64,000 bases of DNA. Source: Psychrobacter sp. Ps6 (GTDB taxonomy: Bacteria; Pseudomonadota; Gammaproteobacteria; Pseudomonadales; Moraxellaceae). The stretch lies in assembly GCF_022129235.1 (NCBI RefSeq), contig NZ_JADQAI010000001.1, positions 310,001-374,000 of the forward strand. The letters are read 5' to 3'. The notes beneath the pieces are model-generated. The model did not search any database and was not told the origin of the DNA. It saw only the letters and a program-made list of their open reading frames with translations. The number at the start of each line of letters is the position of its first letter. The first letter of the stretch is position 1. Positions 11,302 to 49,967 of the stretch are shown here, in pieces. Position numbers and translations under genes: made by a program.

Positions 11302-11781
11302 TTATATGTTCCGAGGAGTAGCGTAAGGCTCCACTGTATGCAACAGCTTGAGCAATGTAGCTAAGAACTCACTTTTCTTTATTTTTGAGGTGATAGTATT
11401 ATTACCATCAAAAAATTTCCCAAAAAATATCAGATATTCATCTTCTTGGTAAACGTAAAATAGAGATTTGTTAGTAGATAAGTCGTAGAACAAAAAGTTA
11501 TCTCTCTCACTACTGCTATCGTAAACGCCAGTTTCAGTTTCATAAAAAATATCGTGTAGCTTGCTTAGTGGCGTATTGATCAAGCTTTTATTTAGGTGAA
11601 ATTCGCCATTAGTAATCAGCTCTATTTCTTTTTTAATATTGTTAACAAGTGGAAACGCAGAATAATTATTATCTTGATAACTGATGTTTACTGAGTTCAC
11701 AATAATATCCATCACTATGAATGGCTTTTCCATTTCATGTATTTTAAAAGCAATAGTTTTTATATTTCCGAGAGTGATCAT
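11302..11781 (-). CDS. Hypothetical protein, AT-rich orphan
   Basis: A 159-residue protein I do not recognise. It has no signal peptide or membrane helix and is rich in Asn, Ile, Lys, Phe and Tyr. The C-terminal half has alternating hydrophobic/aromatic strands (FLFYDLSTNKSLFYVY, then YLIFFGKFFDG), suggesting a small alpha/beta fold of the kind seen in immunity or SMI1-like proteins; that resemblance is only impressionistic. The codons are clearly AT-richer than those of ispE and prs on either side. It interrupts the otherwise conserved ispE - tRNA-Gln - prs order, so lateral acquisition is plausible. It follows ispE on the same strand after 77 bases and could be cotranscribed. No nearby toxin gene is visible. 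Confidence 0.6.
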   Translation of the reverse strand: MITLGNIKTIAFKIHEMEKPFIVMDIIVNSVNISYQDNNYSAFPLVNNIKKEIELITNGEFHLNKSLINTPLSKLHDIFYETETGVYDSSSERDNFLFYDLSTNKSLFYVYQEDEYLIFFGKFFDGNNTITSKIKKSEFLATLLKLLHTVEPYATPRNI

Positions 11782-40436: not shown

Positions 40437-43400
40437 ATGATGACCATCGCCGGACAACCGTTTCTTACCGATTTTCAGACGCAGCAACTCATCAGTCAGT
40501 TCCAGCAAAAAACCGAGCTAAATGTTAGTCAAATAAGTACTCAGCAAGTCTATGTACTCTCACGTGAATTGAGCGGTGATGAGCATAAAAAAGCGCTAGA
40601 TTTACTGGCGGTTGATGCATCAACAACGCTAGATGCGCCGCAAGACAATCAAAGACAAGTCATCGTTGCGCCGCGCTTTGGTACCATCTCACCATGGGCA
40701 AGTAAAGCGACCGATATCTTTAATAACTGTGAAATTAAGATCAATCGTGTTGAGCGTGTCGTTGTTTATACGTTGACCCTCGATGAAAAAACAGACGGCG
40801 ACACAGGCGAAAAACTACCCGTAGACGCTGAGCAGTTGTTGTTTGACCGTATGACTCAGAGCTTGGTTTATGATTTGAGCGATGTCAGTAAATTGTTTGA
40901 CGATCAAGCGCCGGCTTCACTCAATCATATCGATGTCATCGGACAAGGTCAGGCAGCGCTAGAGTCTGCCAATACCGAGTTCGGCTTTGCGTTATCCAGC
41001 GAAGATATTGACTATCTAATGAACGCCTATGTCAATGAGTTGAAACGCAATCCAACTGACGTTGAGCTGATGATGTTTGCACAGGCTAACTCAGAGCATT
41101 GCCGTCATAAGATATTTAATGCTCAGTGGACCGTTGATGGCGAAGTACAGCCAAAATCATTGTTTCAAATGATCAAAAACACGTACCAGTCTAATCCACA
41201 AGGTATTTTATCAGCGTATAAAGACAACGCCGCTGTGATGGCGGGGTCTGATGGCATGCGTTTTTATCCTATCCCAACGGATGCGATGGATGCCAACGCA
41301 ATCCATCCTTATGGATTCCATCAAGAAGACATCGATATCTTGATGAAAGTTGAGACGCACAATCACCCAACGGCAATTGCTCCGTATTCAGGTGCAGCAA
41401 CGGGTTCTGGCGGTGAGATACGTGACGAAGGTGCAACAGGTCGCGGCGGTAAGCCAAAAGCGGGTCTAGCAGGTTTTCATGTGTCGCACTTGCATATCCC
41501 TGAGCTTAGCGAGAAATGGGAGCAGTCAGGTCAGCTGAGCACGCAAGCCTACGGTACGCCAGATCGTATGGCAACCAGCCTTGAGATTATGACCGAAGCG
41601 CCGTTAGGTAGTGCCAATTTTTCAAATGAGTTTGGTCGTCCAAACCTATGCGGTTACTTCCGTAGTTTTCAGCTAGATACCTCTGCGGCAAAAGACGGTA
41701 GCGAGATGCGCGGCTACCATAAGCCAATCATGCTGGCAGGGGGTTACGGCAATATCAAACGCAACTTGATTGAAAAAAATACGATTAAAAAAGGTGATTT
41801 GCTCATTGTTCTGGGTGGCCCTGCGATGCAAATCGGTCTGGGCGGCGGCGCGGCCTCATCGGTCGATAGTGGCGAGCTTGATGAAGGTTTGGATTTTGCT
41901 TCAGTCCAGCGCGATAATGCTGAGATGGAGCGTCGCTGCCAAGAAGTCATCGATCGCTGCTGGGCCCTCGCTGGTGATGATGTAGACGCCAGTAATAACA
42001 GTAAAGACGGCAACCCAATTGTCTCACTACATGACGTAGGCGCAGGTGGTCTGTCTAATGCGATGCCAGAATTGGTCAATGACCATGAAATGGGCGCGCA
42101 TCTGAACTTGCGTAAGATTCCATCATTGGAAGCGGGCATGTCGCCAATGGCAATCTGGTCAAATGAAGCGCAAGAGCGTTATGTGCTCGCGATTCGCCCA
42201 GAGAGCAAAGATCAGTTCGATGCCATCTGTGCCCGTGAGCGCTGTCCATATGCCATCTTGGGCGAGGCGACGGATATCCGTCAGCTCATCGTTGATGATG
42301 AGCTATTGGACGAGCAACCAGTCGATATGCCAATGCAAGTACTGCTCGGCGGTACACCAAAGATGCAGCGCAGCTTTGAGCGTTCTGATAGCACGTTGCC
42401 AGCATTAGAACTTGGTGAAGTTAATTTAGCGGAGTCTATTACCGATGTATTACGTCACCCAACCGTCGCTAGCAAGTCATTCTTGATCAGCATTGGTGAC
42501 CGCTCTATCACTGGTATGGTTGTGCGTGATCAGTATGTGGGTCGCTATCAAGTGCCTGTATCAGATTGCGCGGTGACGGCTTCAGGCTTAGTGGCGCTAG
42601 ATGGTCAGCCAATGAGCGGTGAAGCAATGAGTGTCGGCGAGCGTACGCCTGTTGCGCTTATTAATCCTAAAGCCTCGGCACGTCTGGCAGTGGGTGAAGC
42701 GATTACTAATATCGCGGGCGCACGTATCGCTCAGTTGTCTGATATCACCATGTCGGCGAACTGGATGGCAGCGTGCGGTGATGATGCAGAAGATGCGGCC
42801 CTCTTCGATGCGGTACACGCCGTCGGCGAAGAGCTATGCCCAGCACTCGGTATCGCTATCCCAGTTGGTAAAGACTCGCTATCGATGCGTGCCAACTGGA
42901 GTGATGAAGATGCTGATAATCAAAACCAAGATAAATCAGTCGTCTCGCCAATGAGTTTGGTCGTGACGGCGTTTGCCCCTGTCGTTGATGTGGCAAAAAC
43001 GCTAACCCCTGAGCTAATCAATGGCGACAGCGCGTTTTACCGCATTGACTTGTCTAAAGGTAAACTGCGTCTAGGTGGTTCAATCCTTGCGCAAACGCTC
43101 AGCCAATTGGGTAACGACTGCCCAGATTTAGCGCAGCCAAGCGATTTGATCGACTTCTTTAACTTTATCCAAGCGGGTAATGCGCAAGGCGTCATCAGCG
43201 CTTATCACGATATCGGTGATGGTGGTTTACTAGCGACCATCGCAGAGATGCAGTTCACTAGCCGTCAAGGTATCAAGCTGTCATTAGATGATGACAACTT
43301 ACTCGGTCAGCTGTTCAGTGAAGAGCTAGGCGCGGTCATCCAAGTATTGCCAGAAAATGTCGCGGCGCTCATGCAGTTGGCAGAAGAGTTTAACGTCAGC

Positions 43401-44462
43401 GATATGCTCAGCCTCGTTGGTCAAAGTTCTGAAGAAGACAGCCTATTAATCCAAACGCCTTTGCACATGGGTGACGATACTCTACGCTTTAGCCGTACTG
43501 AATTGCAGCAAGCGTGGACGCAGGTCAGCTATCAAATCGCGCGTCGCCGTGATAACCCAGCGTGCGTACAGCAAGAGTATGACTTGATTAGCGACGCGAG
43601 CCATAAAGGTCTCATCGCTGCGCCAAACTTCGATCTCAATCAAAAAGTGGAAGCGCCTTATGTAAACAGCCGCGCTGATGCTAATAACAGCCAACCAAGA
43701 GTCGCCATCCTGCGCGAGCAAGGCGTCAATGGTCAGACAGAAATGGCAGCAGGCTTTACCCAAGCTGGCTTTGAAGCGGTCGATGTACACATGAGCGACT
43801 TGCTCAGTGGCCGTATCAATCTACGTGACTTCGACGGTCTGGTCGCTTGTGGTGGCTTTAGTTATGGTGACGTACTCGGCGCAGGCTCTGGCTGGGCGAA
43901 CTCTATCTTGTTCCATGACGAGCTACGCATGCAGTTTGTGCGCTTCTTTGCCCGTCCTGATACCTTTAGCTTGGGTGTCTGTAACGGTTGTCAGATGATG
44001 GCACAGTTAAAAGACCTCATCCCAGGTGCAGAAAACTTCCCACGCTTCGTCGCGAACAAATCGGCGCGTTTTGAAGCGCGTACGGTCAACGTAAAAGTTG
44101 AGCGTACCAAGTCGATCCTGTTCAAAGGGATGCAAGACAGCATCTTGCCAATCGCCGTGGCGCATGGTGAAGGCTATGCCACGCTGAATAATACCGAAAT
44201 CGACGGTATGGCAAACCACGGTCAGCTCGCCATGCGTTATGTCGATAGCCAAGGTCATCCAACCGAGACCTATCCGCTCAATCCAAACGGCTCGCTCGGC
44301 GGGGTCACGGGTCTATGTAGCACCGACGGTCGCGTCACTATCATGATGCCGCATCCTGAGCGTAATCTAAAAGCGTATAACCACAGCTGGAAACCAGAAG
44401 AATGGGATGAGGACGGCGCGTGGATGCGTATGTTCCGTAACGCTCGTGCTTGGTTTAGATAG
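40437..44462 (+). CDS. purL: Phosphoribosylformylglycinamidine synthase (large, fused type)
   Basis: Step 4 of purine synthesis: FGAR + Gln + ATP to FGAM. The 1341-residue protein has all domains of the large enzyme: the N-terminal PurS-like domain (1-~190), two AIRS-like ATPase halves (with KVETHNHPTAIAPYSGAATG and later GKDSLSMRANW), and a C-terminal class I glutaminase with Cys1182 (LGVCNGCQMMAQ), His1306 and Glu1308 (MMPHPERN). It is about 45 residues longer than the E. coli protein. Either of two adjacent ATGs could start it; no strong ribosome-binding site is visible. It is monocistronic, with a clear terminator. Confidence 0.97.
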   Translation: MMTIAGQPFLTDFQTQQLISQFQQKTELNVSQISTQQVYVLSRELSGDEHKKALDLLAVDASTTLDAPQDNQRQVIVAPRFGTISPWASKATDIFNNCEIKINRVERVVVYTLTLDEKTDGDTGEKLPVDAEQLLFDRMTQSLVYDLSDVSKLFDDQAPASLNHIDVIGQGQAALESANTEFGFALSSEDIDYLMNAYVNELKRNPTDVELMMFAQANSEHCRHKIFNAQWTVDGEVQPKSLFQMIKNTYQSNPQGILSAYKDNAAVMAGSDGMRFYPIPTDAMDANAIHPYGFHQEDIDILMKVETHNHPTAIAPYSGAATGSGGEIRDEGATGRGGKPKAGLAGFHVSHLHIPELSEKWEQSGQLSTQAYGTPDRMATSLEIMTEAPLGSANFSNEFGRPNLCGYFRSFQLDTSAAKDGSEMRGYHKPIMLAGGYGNIKRNLIEKNTIKKGDLLIVLGGPAMQIGLGGGAASSVDSGELDEGLDFASVQRDNAEMERRCQEVIDRCWALAGDDVDASNNSKDGNPIVSLHDVGAGGLSNAMPELVNDHEMGAHLNLRKIPSLEAGMSPMAIWSNEAQERYVLAIRPESKDQFDAICARERCPYAILGEATDIRQLIVDDELLDEQPVDMPMQVLLGGTPKMQRSFERSDSTLPALELGEVNLAESITDVLRHPTVASKSFLISIGDRSITGMVVRDQYVGRYQVPVSDCAVTASGLVALDGQPMSGEAMSVGERTPVALINPKASARLAVGEAITNIAGARIAQLSDITMSANWMAACGDDAEDAALFDAVHAVGEELCPALGIAIPVGKDSLSMRANWSDEDADNQNQDKSVVSPMSLVVTAFAPVVDVAKTLTPELINGDSAFYRIDLSKGKLRLGGSILAQTLSQLGNDCPDLAQPSDLIDFFNFIQAGNAQGVISAYHDIGDGGLLATIAEMQFTSRQGIKLSLDDDNLLGQLFSEELGAVIQVLPENVAALMQLAEEFNVSDMLSLVGQSSEEDSLLIQTPLHMGDDTLRFSRTELQQAWTQVSYQIARRRDNPACVQQEYDLISDASHKGLIAAPNFDLNQKVEAPYVNSRADANNSQPRVAILREQGVNGQTEMAAGFTQAGFEAVDVHMSDLLSGRINLRDFDGLVACGGFSYGDVLGAGSGWANSILFHDELRMQFVRFFARPDTFSLGVCNGCQMMAQLKDLIPGAENFPRFVANKSARFEARTVNVKVERTKSILFKGMQDSILPIAVAHGEGYATLNNTEIDGMANHGQLAMRYVDSQGHPTETYPLNPNGSLGGVTGLCSTDGRVTIMMPHPERNLKAYNHSWKPEEWDEDGAWMRMFRNARAWFR

Positions 44463-44510
44463 GCTAAGTTGGTTTAAATTATTGTTCTAGACAGCTATTT
44501 TTTAAATGAG

Positions 44511-44537
44511 AAGGTGAGCGTAATGCTCACCTTTTTT
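44511..44537 (+). terminator. Terminator after purL
   Basis: A perfect stem AAGGTGAGC / GCTCACCTT with a 5-base loop, followed by a T-run to 44537. Confidence 0.9.
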
Positions 44538-44576
44538 GTGTTTGAGATTTGGGTTTTTAAAATAAAGGAGCTATTT

Positions 44577-44735
44577 CCCGCCTTCCGCTTGTATCTGCCA
44601 GTCTGGGCGCGGCGCTGGCTACGGTTTGGGTCGTCGCTTGCTTCGCGTCGCCACCCCAAAACCTAGCCATCGCAACTCGCCTAAACTAGCAGGATACCGC
44701 TACAGTCGGGGCTAGCGGTAACATCATGTTCTTGC
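44577..44735. repeat. GC-rich hairpin element upstream of the NACHT gene
   Basis: About 160 GC-rich bases in an otherwise AT-rich spacer. Its core is a long imperfect inverted repeat, GGCTA-C-GGTTT-GGG...CGTCGC against GCGTCGCC-A-CCCCAAAACC-TAGCC (about 44617-44668), around a TTGCTTC loop. The left end reads CCCGCCTTCCGCTTGTATCT. The composition jump and fold suggest a mobile-repeat remnant (REP/MITE-like) or a structured RNA. No ORF fits it. Whether it is dispersed in the genome cannot be told from one copy. Confidence 0.5.
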
Positions 44736-44791
44736 TACTATCAACTGTAGTTTGAACTCAAAATAAAAAAATTCTTTCTTTCATATGAAAG

Positions 44792-44797
44792 TATAAT
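44792..44797 (+). promoter_or_regulatory. Likely -10 element of the NACHT gene
   Basis: A perfect TATAAT at 44792-44797, about 30 bases before the preferred ATG. No good -35 at the standard distance, which hints at low or regulated expression. Confidence 0.4.
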
Positions 44798-44827
44798 ATT
44801 TTAGTCTAAATTGTGATGATTATAAGA

Positions 44828-47800
44828 ATGTCTAAACAGAAAAACACAGCTGGCGGTAGTGCCACTGAAAGAGGAATGGATTTTCAGGCACGCGTAAGTG
44901 CTATCGTACTTACTTGCCTGATTACTGAGAAAACTTTGAGTTGGATTGAAGATAATCCGACTATTATACCTATTAACTGCCAAGCAGAAACTGGCGGTTC
45001 TGGAGATGATATTGCCTTCACCAGTTCCAATGGGAAGTTCTTTGAAGTTCAAGTTAAAAGAGGGTTTAGAAAGGGCGATGACTTATGGGATGCTTTAATA
45101 AAACTTGCCAAAGCAATTGTTTCAAATGACATTAATTATGGGATTTTAGTCGTCTGCCCTGATTCATCTGGAACGATAAGGAAGGACTTAGCTCAAGATA
45201 TTATTAGAATGGGCCAAAATAGATTTGACGGAATTAAAGATATATCAATTGAGTTTAAGAGCAAACTGGAAAATGAAGGACTTAATGTTTCGAGAGTCTG
45301 TTCTTCACTATATATACAAACCGTAAATGCTATCGAAGGAAATAATGACGCTGAATCTCTAGCAAAGAATATGTTAGGTAGTGTTTCAGATGATGGAGAA
45401 AAAGCATGGCAAGTGCTGGTCGAAAACTCTAGAAGAATAATAAAAATCAAAGGAAATTCAACGCTTCAAAGTTGTCACGAGCTTTTAAAAAATAAAGGGA
45501 TAACTATACAGTCAGGGGAAAAAACGAGTATTCAGCTATTCAATAAAGCACACCAGTATAACAAAAATGCTTACGCTGAGATATCAATTCTTAGTGTACC
45601 AAAACCTATTGACTTACAAAGTATATGGATTCCTTTAGAGGCAGCTATTATTAGCGATGAAGAGAATGAAAGTTTAAACTTGGATCTAACTATCGAGAGG
45701 TATCAAAGCTGGTATAAAGAAAGGCGTAATAATGACACTATCATTGATTCCTTCACATTTGGAAGATTCATAAAAAAATGTGTTGTCATAGGTGGCGCTG
45801 GTATAGGAAAAACTACGTTATTTCGTAAACTAGCCCTAGATTATAGTGACGAAGGATATTTTGTTCTATTCGTTAAGTTGTCAAAACTAACGGACATGCT
45901 ATCGGATAGTAGCAAGGGTTTCGAAGAATGCTTGATAGATTGTGCGTTCGATAGAAAGATACAACCTGACAATATCAGTTCCTTGCTACAAAATGCAGTG
46001 ATATTGGCTGATGGTCTAGATGAATGTTTCCAACAGCAATCAGAAATAACTCAATACTTTTCAAAGCTCTCGAAAGACTATCCAGAATCACGGATTTTGA
46101 TATCAACTCGTCCAATAGGATACAAGCTAGGTTTGATAAGCGATTGGCGACGCTATGAACTTAAACCCATTGATGATAAAGGATTTGAAAGTGCAGTAAA
46201 GCAACTAACTTCAGTTATTTCTCCAGAGATAAAGATAGACGAAGCTGTTTTAAAGCAGATAGAAGCCGTCAAAATCAGTCATCTAGTCAAGAGAAACCCG
46301 CTAATTTTGAGTCTGGTTGTTATTCTTGTAAAAAGAGGTATAGAGGCAAATACTAATTATGCTTCTTTGTATAGACAGCTATTCTCTTTAATAGAAACAG
46401 AAAGTCCAAAGCGAGAGGTTTCGGTAAATTTGCCAAGTAGACAATTACGAGAGTTTTTGTATTTGTTAGGATGGATAATATTAAGAGATGGTTATAAGCC
46501 GTTACAAGAGCTGGTTCGGATATGTCATGAAGAGTGGAAAGAAGAGTTGCCACTTCGAAAGTTTGAAGCATACAAAGTGATAGATGATTGTATTGCATAC
46601 TGGGTAGCGAAAGGAATTATTGAAAAAGTTAATGACTTAACAGATGAAACTGTTTTGTTCATACACAAAACGTTAGGTGAGTATGCTGCTGCCGAACATT
46701 TGAAACTTCAAAATATTATTATCCAAGAGCAGTTTATTTTAGAGGCATTTTCAAACCCTCAATATAGTGAAACGCTAACATTCCTTAGTCATTTAGGTTT
46801 AAGCTCTAAGATTTTAGCATTATGGAATGATACATATTCTGCTGATAACAAACCCAAAAATATCAATATATATGATTTCATACTGCACGCAGGTATTGAT
46901 TACAAATCAGATGAAATAGATAGCTTTATAAGTTTGTGTTGGGAAATAACAGAGGATTCTCTTTCTACAAACCGTTATACGAGCGGAGCAATTTTATGTC
47001 ATATTGCGACACGTACATGGGATAAAATTGAATTTAGTGTTAAAAAAAGACTAGACTCTGTTGATAACTGGGTATCTTTTATAGCATTAAATTGTAATTT
47101 AATCGCTACAAAAGAGATAACTTCGAAAGATTTATACACTTGTATTGAAAAATTAGAAGAAATTTTTGAGCCTATTAGAGTAGAAAGGTTTATTAAGAAC
47201 CGAAATCTTACAAAAATACAGATAAAAAACGATTTAATAAAATTACTAATAGAGAAAACATTACAAAATAATAATGAAGAATTTTTAGAAATTATTGAAA
47301 CATATATTCAAAAAGAGAACAATGGTCTTAGTGTTGGGCTAATATCAGATATTATAAAGAAATACTCTAAATATGAAAGATCAATGCCTAACTATAGCTT
47401 TTTAGAATATAGTATTTTTTCTAAAACGATGAAAAGAGAAGTAGCCCCTATCAATCAGGCTTTTAATAGTGAAGATTTTAAAAAACATGAAAAAACTAAA
47501 AATATAAATTTCTTCAACGTTATCATTGGTATTGGGAATAGTATCGATACTATAGTTTTAGATTTTAAAAAAATGATAGAATTGAGTGCTTTGATTAATT
47601 TATCTAGCATAATGGAAATGTATGTACAGGATTTTAACGTATTTTATCCTAACGTTGTAGAAAATGATAGCAGGACATTCATTTTTTCATCATTAGCTAG
47701 ACTTAATAACTTAGACTACGAGGTTGTGCTGAAGCAATCAAATTCAATAGTTAGTAAAATAGGAAAGTTATCAGGTGATGAAAGTTTTATGTATCCAATA

Positions 47801-48748
47801 CATAAGCTACCTCGAGTAGATATTGAGTTCGAAATAGTAAATTCCTTAAATATAGAGTTATTAGTTTGTATTAAAAAACTGATTTTAACTAATGAAAGGT
47901 TTTTAATAGCAAATGCTTGTCGCCTATTCCTATCATATCCTGAATCAGAAAGCTTTGAAATATACTTAGGGCTTATAAAAGATGGAGAAGGTCTATCGCT
48001 TTTATATATAGGTGCTATGAGCGAACATTATCAGAGTCTGGAAAATATCGATAAGATTCAAAACTTATTTTTAGAGAAATTGTTGAACGATAATTTAGCA
48101 AGTGGTTGTGAGTACTTATACCAATATGTTATAGAACCGTATAACGAGAGCCATATTCAAGTAATAATAAAAGGTCTTAACTCAAGAAACCCCATTATTG
48201 CAACTGGAGCAACAGAACTACTTGATAAGATACCACTTAATCTTATAAGCTTAGATGAGGTGAAAGAGCTTTACTTGTTATGGAAAGATATAGAAGAGCC
48301 ATACCCAGTCAAAGGAGGGACTGTTCCACATACTCCAAGAGAAAATTTAGCGAAAATATTGATTAAATATAATTATTATGATGAAATTTTCATACAACAG
48401 ATGATGTTAGATATTAGACCCGATATTAAAAAACAAGCAATACAACCTTTCATTGATTATTGTAAAGACTCAAGTCAGTTAAGACACTGGCTCATAGGCA
48501 AGGTTAAAAGCAAAGAGATAAGTGCAGACTTGCTAAAAAAATGTATTACTGAAGGCAATTTTTTAAAGGATAGTCATCTTGTCTTAGAGCTATTAGATAA
48601 TGAGAGTGCCGATATTCGAGAAAATGCTTTAGAGATTTTAAACACAAAATATATTACTGAATGTAAAATGAAAGCTCATGCAGAAAGGCTATTAAGTGAT
48701 GAAATTATAGAAATCAGAGAATATGCTAAAAAAATCTTAGATACATAG
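44828..48748 (+). CDS. Nuclease-NACHT-HEAT NLR-like protein, putative antiphage defence
   Basis: About 1300 residues; numbers here count from an in-frame GTG at 44813. The ATG at 44828 (MSKQKNTAGG) is preferred, though no strong ribosome-binding site is seen. Residues ~15-200 look like a PD-(D/E)xK nuclease of the Mrr/DUF4297 (Cap4) kind: GGSGDDIAF with Asp65/Asp66, then FFEVQVKRG with Glu78, Gln80 and Lys82. Residues ~320-640 form a NACHT STAND ATPase: Walker A GGAGIGKT (327-334), Walker B with the NACHT-type LADGLDE (Asp400-Glu404), and sensor LISTRP (Arg433). The remaining ~650 residues are helical with HEAT-like repeats near the end (for example NESADIRENALEIL, DEIIEIREYAKKIL), as expected of a ligand-sensing region. 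The gene is AT-rich, single and uninterrupted, lying between purL and tdh. Family knowledge suggests phage sensing, oligomerisation and DNA degradation; that is inference. It could also be called an Avs-like STAND protein. Confidence 0.85.
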   Translation: MSKQKNTAGGSATERGMDFQARVSAIVLTCLITEKTLSWIEDNPTIIPINCQAETGGSGDDIAFTSSNGKFFEVQVKRGFRKGDDLWDALIKLAKAIVSNDINYGILVVCPDSSGTIRKDLAQDIIRMGQNRFDGIKDISIEFKSKLENEGLNVSRVCSSLYIQTVNAIEGNNDAESLAKNMLGSVSDDGEKAWQVLVENSRRIIKIKGNSTLQSCHELLKNKGITIQSGEKTSIQLFNKAHQYNKNAYAEISILSVPKPIDLQSIWIPLEAAIISDEENESLNLDLTIERYQSWYKERRNNDTIIDSFTFGRFIKKCVVIGGAGIGKTTLFRKLALDYSDEGYFVLFVKLSKLTDMLSDSSKGFEECLIDCAFDRKIQPDNISSLLQNAVILADGLDECFQQQSEITQYFSKLSKDYPESRILISTRPIGYKLGLISDWRRYELKPIDDKGFESAVKQLTSVISPEIKIDEAVLKQIEAVKISHLVKRNPLILSLVVILVKRGIEANTNYASLYRQLFSLIETESPKREVSVNLPSRQLREFLYLLGWIILRDGYKPLQELVRICHEEWKEELPLRKFEAYKVIDDCIAYWVAKGIIEKVNDLTDETVLFIHKTLGEYAAAEHLKLQNIIIQEQFILEAFSNPQYSETLTFLSHLGLSSKILALWNDTYSADNKPKNINIYDFILHAGIDYKSDEIDSFISLCWEITEDSLSTNRYTSGAILCHIATRTWDKIEFSVKKRLDSVDNWVSFIALNCNLIATKEITSKDLYTCIEKLEEIFEPIRVERFIKNRNLTKIQIKNDLIKLLIEKTLQNNNEEFLEIIETYIQKENNGLSVGLISDIIKKYSKYERSMPNYSFLEYSIFSKTMKREVAPINQAFNSEDFKKHEKTKNINFFNVIIGIGNSIDTIVLDFKKMIELSALINLSSIMEMYVQDFNVFYPNVVENDSRTFIFSSLARLNNLDYEVVLKQSNSIVSKIGKLSGDESFMYPIHKLPRVDIEFEIVNSLNIELLVCIKKLILTNERFLIANACRLFLSYPESESFEIYLGLIKDGEGLSLLYIGAMSEHYQSLENIDKIQNLFLEKLLNDNLASGCEYLYQYVIEPYNESHIQVIIKGLNSRNPIIATGATELLDKIPLNLISLDEVKELYLLWKDIEEPYPVKGGTVPHTPRENLAKILIKYNYYDEIFIQQMMLDIRPDIKKQAIQPFIDYCKDSSQLRHWLIGKVKSKEISADLLKKCITEGNFLKDSHLVLELLDNESADIRENALEILNTKYITECKMKAHAERLLSDEIIEIREYAKKILDT

Positions 48749-48762
48749 CTATTAACTCGTAG

Positions 48763-48777
48763 AAAACGTGCGTTTTT
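48763..48777 (+). terminator. Weak terminator after the NACHT gene
   Basis: A short hairpin AAAAC / GTTTT with a GTGC loop and a T-run, 15 bases after the stop codon. Confidence 0.3.
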
Positions 48778-48852
48778 ATCTAACTACCCATTGCTTAAAT
48801 GCTCTCTAAGCCTCAACAATCAACTCGTCAATATTATCACTTTTTAATACCC

Positions 48853-48884
48853 AAAAAAAACGGCACTGAAATCAGCGCCGTTTT
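48853..48884 (-). terminator. Terminator after tdh (possibly bidirectional)
   Basis: Minus strand: AAAACGGC(G)CTGA pairs with TCAG(T)GCCGTTTT, followed by a run of Ts. Confidence 0.85.
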
Positions 48885-48941
48885 ATAAGTCGTGATAATG
48901 TAAAAGCTAGCCACGATTCCTCAAATGCTAAATTGCCAAAA

Positions 48942-49967
48942 TTAATCCCAGCTTAAAATCACCTTACCGCATTGCCCACTTTCCATGATATCAAAGCCTT
49001 CTTGAAAGTCATCAATGTGCATGCGATGGGTAATGATTGGTGTCAAATCAATACCGCTAATCAGCATTTGCTCCATCTGATACCATGTCTCCCACATCTC
49101 GCGCCCATAGATACCTTTTAGGGTTAACGCCTTAAAGATAATCTTGCTCCAGTCCACCGTGGTGGTGTTAGGCAAAATGCCTAAGAGCGCAATTTTAGAG
49201 CCGTTATACATATTGCTAATCATCGAGTCAAAGGCCTGAGGCGAGCCTGACATCTCAAGCCCAATGTCAAAGCCGTGCATTTTTAACGTATCGATAGCGC
49301 CTTCGATGGTTTCACCCTTGGCTGGGTTGATGGTCATCGTCGCGCCCATCTTTTTGGCAAGCTCTAAGCGATAATCACTGATATCACTGACCACAATATT
49401 ACGTGCCCCAGCAAATCGGCAAATCGCCGTTGCCATTGACCCAATCAGTCCTGCACCCGTAATCAGCACATCTTCACCCAGTACAGGGAATGAAAGGGCA
49501 GTGTGAGTGGCATTGCCAAAAGGGTCCATAATGGCTGCCATCTCATCGCTGATACGCTCATCGAGTTTGATGACATTGTCGGCAGGTATCACCAAATATT
49601 CGGCAAACGCGCCATCGCGGTCGACGCCCACACCGATGGTATTTTCGCACACATGCAGCTTACCGCGGCGGCAGTTGCGGCAATGCCCGCAAGCGATATG
49701 GCCTTCGCCTGTGACGCGGTCGCCCACTTCCAGATGCTTGACGCCATCGCCCATTTCACTAATGACACCGACGTATTCATGTCCGATAATCATCGGTGTC
49801 TTGATGGTGTTTTGTGACCATTCATCCCATTTATAAATGTGTAAATCTGTCCCACAAATGGCGGTTTTTTTAATTTTTATTTTAACGTCATTGATGCCAA
49901 CGGTCGGTTCTGGCACGTCTTGCATCCAGATGCCTTTTTTGTCATGGGCTTTAACCAGTGCTTTCAT
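48942..49967 (-). CDS. tdh: L-threonine 3-dehydrogenase
   Basis: A zinc-dependent medium-chain dehydrogenase oxidising L-threonine to 2-amino-3-ketobutyrate with NAD+. The 341-residue length and key residues match E. coli Tdh: Cys38, Thr40 and His43 ([15 protein letters not shown]), GHEYVG with His and Glu of the catalytic zinc site, structural zinc Cys of [15 protein letters not shown], and Rossmann loop [11 protein letters not shown]. It lies just downstream of kbl (63-base gap), forming the kbl-tdh operon that converts threonine to glycine and acetyl-CoA. Confidence 0.97.

Follow-up and report, generated by a model that had tools for sequence, protein, structure and literature searches.

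Introduction

The closest described counterparts of the protein analyzed here are bNACHT25/32, clade 6 bacterial NLR-related proteins with demonstrated antiphage activity (PMC12169576). They are stand-alone proteins with an N-terminal PD-(D/E)XK nuclease, a central NACHT module, and a C-terminal sensing region; their heads are active DNases, DNA is degraded upon activation, and the D48A nuclease mutant loses protection (PMC12169576). The protein considered in this study, which is encoded at positions 44828 to 48748 of a 64,000-nucleotide stretch of the Psychrobacter sp. Ps6 genome, here called the window, also stands alone and has the same three parts in the same order. (All coordinates are window positions on the plus strand unless marked otherwise.) Its head belongs to the same fold class as those of bNACHT25/32, a likeness drawn from description; the C termini, again by description, set the proteins apart, in that bNACHT25/32 carry an NCH1 domain, whereas the window protein has a long HEAT/ARM-like solenoid. 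NCH1 was not among its Pfam matches at E values of up to 1, in a library in which the presence of an NCH1 model is unconfirmed, and a search with PF22730 (NCC-H) was uninformative, as nothing matched, controls included.

Avs3 and Avs4 share the order nuclease, STAND ATPase, and sensor with the window protein, and both (PDB 8dgc and 8dgf) were found by structure search (E values of 2.9e-8 and 9.8e-7); however, the Avs sensor is of the TPR type, whereas that of the window protein resembles HEAT/ARM folds. No Avs model (AVAST types 1 to 5) was matched in a PADLOC scan at E values of up to 1 and, as judged from such models, the protein belongs to none of the modelled Avs types. EruA (NCBIfam NF058535), a NACHT antiphage protein of 1,318 residues, is similar in length and has NACHT in common, and its model was matched weakly by 8 of the 16 rows of our family alignment (A3; best E value, 3.1e-6); in the window protein, however, the match covers only residues 295 to 337, with 17.9 bits against a cutoff of 1,000. 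The animal proteins NLRC4, NOD2, and NLRP3 share the NACHT and winged-helix fold (E about 1e-11), and NLRC4 has an F-HK-F-E-A motif in common with the family, but animal NLRs have CARD or PYD heads and leucine-rich repeats where the window protein has a nuclease head and a HEAT-like tail.

The window protein has a NACHT-type STAND ATPase with Walker A and B motifs, as well as the three-part layout, two of the features that mark a bNACHT, and by layout it is a bacterial NLR-related (bNACHT) protein. An earlier reading of the sequence alone had called it a candidate new system; because nuclease-NACHT proteins with antiphage activity have already been described (PMC12169576), it is instead to be regarded as a variant of bNACHT.

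Results

The gene is one uninterrupted open reading frame (ORF), from the ATG at 44828 to the stop at 48748 (1,306 residues), which confirms that a single gene encodes the whole protein, and its layout is shared by 13 full-length, nonduplicate relatives (alignment A3). An alternative start, the upstream GTG at 44813, would give 1,311 residues; the ATG is favored because the N termini of the relatives start with a similar short lysine-rich stretch. The sequence-only reading had counted from the GTG, so that its residue numbers were 5 too high; the corrected positions are D60/D61, E73, Q75, and K77 in the head, 322 to 329 for Walker A, 395 to 399 for DGLDE, and R428 in STRP. With a GC content of 0.325 (GC3, 0.26), against 0.50 for purL, 0.48 for tdh, and 0.44 for the window, the gene is as AT rich as had been claimed, the sensor half being its most AT-rich part, and it does lie alone between purL and tdh. 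Promoter-like sites did not exceed the number in shuffled sequences, and no promoter is claimed.

To build the family, the window protein was first aligned with a protein from a Rhizobium plasmid (28% identity end to end), and a three-sequence alignment was then used; in this way, 18 loci were reached in bacterial genomes. The layout is kept by at least 13 full-length relatives, which come from Alpha-, Beta-, Gamma-, Zeta-, and Deltaproteobacteria, a myxobacterium, and a Rhizobium plasmid. Comparisons were made over 14 full-length, nonduplicate members, window protein included, with alignment A3 comprising 16 rows; one locus (L041) was left out because it repeats another (L037) over the regions compared. 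The row of the Rhizobium plasmid relative was left out of the input for structure prediction.

Conservation, the AF2 fold, and register with Mrr_cat point to a PD-(D/E)xK-type nuclease head at residues 8 to 170, approximately (44849 to 45337), with predicted catalytic residues E54, D60, D61, (E73), Q75, and K77 (44987 to 45058). None of the 14 members differs at E54, G59, D60, D61, Q75, or K77, E73 is replaced by D in one of them, and the head is the best conserved region, with a mean pairwise identity of 0.47. In the AF2 model, its elements follow in the order helix, strand, strand, strand, helix, strand, where GDD starts strand 2 and QVK ends strand 3; this predicted arrangement is that of the PD-(D/E)xK core (alpha-beta-beta-beta-alpha-beta), in which strand 2 bears D and strand 3 bears (E/Q)xK. 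The head gave no Pfam, NCBIfam, or PDB sequence match and no significant match to a characterized nuclease, and neither Mrr_cat (PF04471) nor Cap4/DUF4297 (PF14130) was matched as its family in the Pfam scan. When profiles were compared, the Mrr profile scored 23.3 against the head profile (best of 60 column-shuffled controls, 20.8), with the DD and QVK of the head paired in register with the Mrr_cat catalytic motif, and the Cap4 profile scored 18.2 (best shuffled control, 17.2). The likeness to the Mrr profile is suggestive but is no proof of family. Cap4 was rejected as the head family after nine sequences had been tried, the alignment being limited to the N-terminal GG...FQ motif. The nuclease head proposed earlier is upheld by its invariant E/DD/QxK residues and predicted topology, but not by a family profile match in Pfam or NCBIfam.

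PDC-M54A, an untested candidate, was the sole PADLOC match of the window protein at E values of up to 1. It has the head in common and is matched by all 16 rows of A3 (best E value, 3.4e-11), and its likeness to the window protein is confined to residues 4 to 98. A Parvibaculum protein of 1,644 residues (L051), which contains no Pfam domain, also has only the head in common. At another locus (L048:8586-12848), the same head is joined to a TPR-PIN protein without NACHT, a body for which the locus was dropped as a family member; this fusion suggests that the head has been shuffled between sensors.

The NACHT NTPase core occupies residues 301 to 460, approximately (45728 to 46207), and PF05729 covers residues 318 to 451 with an E value of 1.6e-10, over the family cutoff; of the 16 A3 rows, 14 also match this family. 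Scored over the 14 full-length members, K328 and G323/G325/G327 of Walker A (GGAGIGKT, residues 322 to 329; 45791 to 45814), D395, L397, and D398 of the Walker B-type DGLDE (residues 395 to 399; 46010 to 46024; DGLD(E/D) in the relatives), and R428-P429 of the STRP motif (46103 to 46114) are invariant, in agreement with the NACHT ATPase recognized in the sequence-only reading. A winged-helix motif, FIHKTLGEYAAA (residues 611 to 622; 46658 to 46693), is conserved in most members with the consensus F(V/I)HK(T/S)FGE(F/Y)AAAR, and the family profile aligns it with the same motif of NLRC4; apart from that motif, PDB sequence searches gave only chance matches. The AF2 model of residues 5 to 690 (mean pLDDT, 85; pTM, 0.75) has NLRC4, NOD2, and NLRP3 as its closest solved folds, followed by Avs3 and Avs4.

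The sensor region (residues 641 to 1306; 46748 to 48745) is helical, HEAT/ARM-like, and the least conserved part of the protein. The AF2 model of residues 640 to 1306 is all helical, with a mean pLDDT of 80 and values around 90 in much of its C-terminal half. Its best PDB folds are HEAT/ARM solenoids (PP2A scaffold, karyopherin, and beta-catenin), at TM-scores of 0.1 to 0.33; because these scores are low, the HEAT/ARM class is supported, but no close relative is known. The Pfam scan named no C-terminal domain in the tail and gave no TPR match. The earlier description of a long helical HEAT-like tail, unlike the TPR sensors of Avs, is borne out by these approximately 660 all-helical residues, and, with the head and the invariant motifs, so is the effector-switch-sensor layout. 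A sensor motif, EEPYPVKGGTVPHTPR (residues 1156 to 1171; 48293 to 48340), is kept in most relatives. Mean identity between the window protein and its relatives is 0.43 in the head and 0.35 in NACHT, against 0.14 and 0.23 in the first and second halves of the sensor, which indicates a fixed effector and switch and a changing sensor.

The gene was absent from all 35 congeners examined. A class sample of 369 genomes contained it only in its own genome, plus one partial NACHT match; in a phylum sample, it was found in 1 of 399 genomes, plus a fragment at a contig end. No relative was found in the viral contigs scanned or in phage records. Across these samples, the gene is rare and its distribution is patchy, the pattern that horizontal transfer would be expected to leave. 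The presumption that it had been acquired accords with its absence from the 35 congeners, by which it is not conserved at this locus across the genus, and with its AT richness relative to purL and tdh. Mobility and a defense neighborhood are evident among the relatives: one sits on a conjugative plasmid (Rhizobium), where it adjoins a CBASS E1-E2/JAB gene, and others adjoin Wadjet JetC and JetD (a zetaproteobacterium), BREX PglZ and BrxHI (Thiocapsa), and an Mko-like gene (Eilatimonas), as seen in scans of a minority of loci with ORF calls that are noisy in GC-rich contigs.

In 20 congeners, purL (40437 to 44462; identified by reading the sequence) and tdh (48942 to 49967, minus strand) border a slot, corresponding to window positions 44463 to 48941, that is 813 to 5,349 bp long and in 19 of the 20 holds different, AT-rich, mostly defense-type cargo. 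In most congeners, homology stops at approximately 44543 to 44596 and resumes at approximately 48796 to 48855, about where terminator-like stem-loops follow purL (44508 to 44536) and tdh (48857 to 48884, minus strand); terminator-like sites occur at chance number overall, these two lying directly behind the two genes. Scans covered a single representative per cargo type, and the other congeners were assigned by tblastn. The cargo is RmrT-RmrA (RmrTA) in four congeners, an HD-CE/HATPase protein in four, a pair of 302- and 189-residue proteins with a PDC-M63A match in three, a Thoeris-type ThsB TIR with SLATT in two, and, in one each, a TIR-like protein with Mrr, Panacea with PDC-S33, a helicase with PDC-S71, an AbiJ-type protein, an unmatched three-gene unit, and small ORFs only; in the remaining congener, the slot is nearly empty (815 bp). 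The contents match a defense model or a defense-linked Pfam family in 13 of the 20, or in 17 when HD-CE is included. In the congener whose tdh protein is identical (G812, L082), ThsB and SLATT take the place of the NACHT gene. Variation is general in this region, as intergenic gaps elsewhere in the stretch also differ in length, reaching about 2.4 kb, but in each of the 20 congeners the purL-tdh gap exceeds all of them. The comparison of spacers suggested at the outset thus revealed other defense-type genes in the same slot which, together with relatives beside Wadjet, BREX, and CBASS genes, substantiates the defense context. A limited literature search found no published account of this slot.

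A 161-bp element (44554 to 44714) is also present in the slot of four congeners (L082, L091, L097, and L100) at 92 to 97% identity and is perhaps a recombination handle; a repeat origin was rejected, as it is a single copy in this genome.

Discussion

By analogy with bNACHT25/32, in which the nuclease is needed and DNA is degraded (PMC12169576), the following mechanism may be proposed. In the resting state, the nuclease head would be idle and the NACHT switch nucleotide bound. The HEAT/ARM-like tail would detect a sign of infection, either itself or by way of a host protein, and the NACHT module would then change its nucleotide state and oligomerize. The clustered heads would cut DNA, destroying that of the phage and probably that of the host too, so that the infection aborts. 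Our analysis shows the layout, the conservation of the catalytic-type and ATPase motifs, the predicted folds, the mobility of the gene, and its defense context; it is from this analogy that we infer DNA as the substrate, oligomerization, the trigger, and protection itself.

Other roles can be envisioned for such a protein. Some STAND proteins, MalT among them, regulate transcription, but a NACHT-type regulator or a chromosomal housekeeping gene without a defense role is very improbable here: no DNA-binding regulator domain was found in the Pfam scan, the head is of the nuclease type, absence from 35 congeners contradicts a conserved presence in the genus, the GC content is 0.325 in a window of 0.44, and defense genes take its place in the same slot of congeners. 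It is also quite unlikely that the head has a nuclease fold but has lost its cutting activity, or cuts RNA, with activation acting via RNA cleavage or through assembly alone. NACHT-associated inactive nuclease domains do exist (Pfam NA-iREase), and searches with the head gave no significant match to a proven DNase; however, E54, D60, D61, Q75, and K77 are identical in 14 of 14 members, and a dead head is not expected when catalytic-type residues are invariant across distant bacterial groups. The bNACHT25/32 heads, moreover, are active DNases (PMC12169576).

The sequence does not name the trigger, and the same machine might be directed at mobile DNA such as plasmids instead of at phage. One relative is carried by a conjugative plasmid, and another lies beside Wadjet, which is an anti-plasmid system. 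Nevertheless, among the other slot cargo for which a counterpart is known, most (Thoeris-type and RmrTA) is usually classed as antiphage, and the described nuclease-NACHT relatives act on phages (PMC12169576); we therefore regard a plasmid target as unlikely.

We consider it highly likely that the window protein is a bacterial NLR-type protein that by itself provides defense against phage (or mobile elements). More tentatively, it may represent an undescribed bNACHT clade in which the trigger sensed by the HEAT/ARM-like tail differs from those of Avs (terminase and portal) and bNACHT25 (DnaJ linked), carried in a purL-tdh plug-in slot where the genus swaps single defense systems between two transcription terminators; this fuller account is possible rather than probable. 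With this gene, nuclease-NACHT immunity would extend to a separate family, thinly spread across Proteobacteria and a myxobacterium, and, because the predicted effector output (DNA degradation) is readable, discovery of the trigger of its sensor is practical. The slot is a stronger surprise than the nuclease-NACHT gene and is a place to find more defense genes, since several of its occupants match no known system.

Several minor observations concern these occupants and the window. A stand-alone protein of 1,046 residues, which has an HD-CE domain and matches HATPase weakly, recurs in the slot (L088:13479-16619; also L084, L092, and L094); it gave no PADLOC match and is a possible undescribed defense gene. 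The overlapping 302- and 189-residue pair is conserved (L095:2150-3620; also L099 and L101), and only the smaller protein matches the candidate model PDC-M63A. The three-gene unit (L091:13121-15776; 133, 150, and 471 residues) gave no PADLOC match, and its first two genes are also present in L100. A 132-residue ORF (MSGITDINELL...) of near-normal GC content recurs in the slot of L085 and several other congeners; the nearly empty slot has no other long ORF, and this one was not seen in the slot of the window. Elsewhere in the window, a lone AT-rich (GC, 0.32) ORF of 159 residues (11302 to 11781) lies among core genes, near two tRNA-Gln genes.
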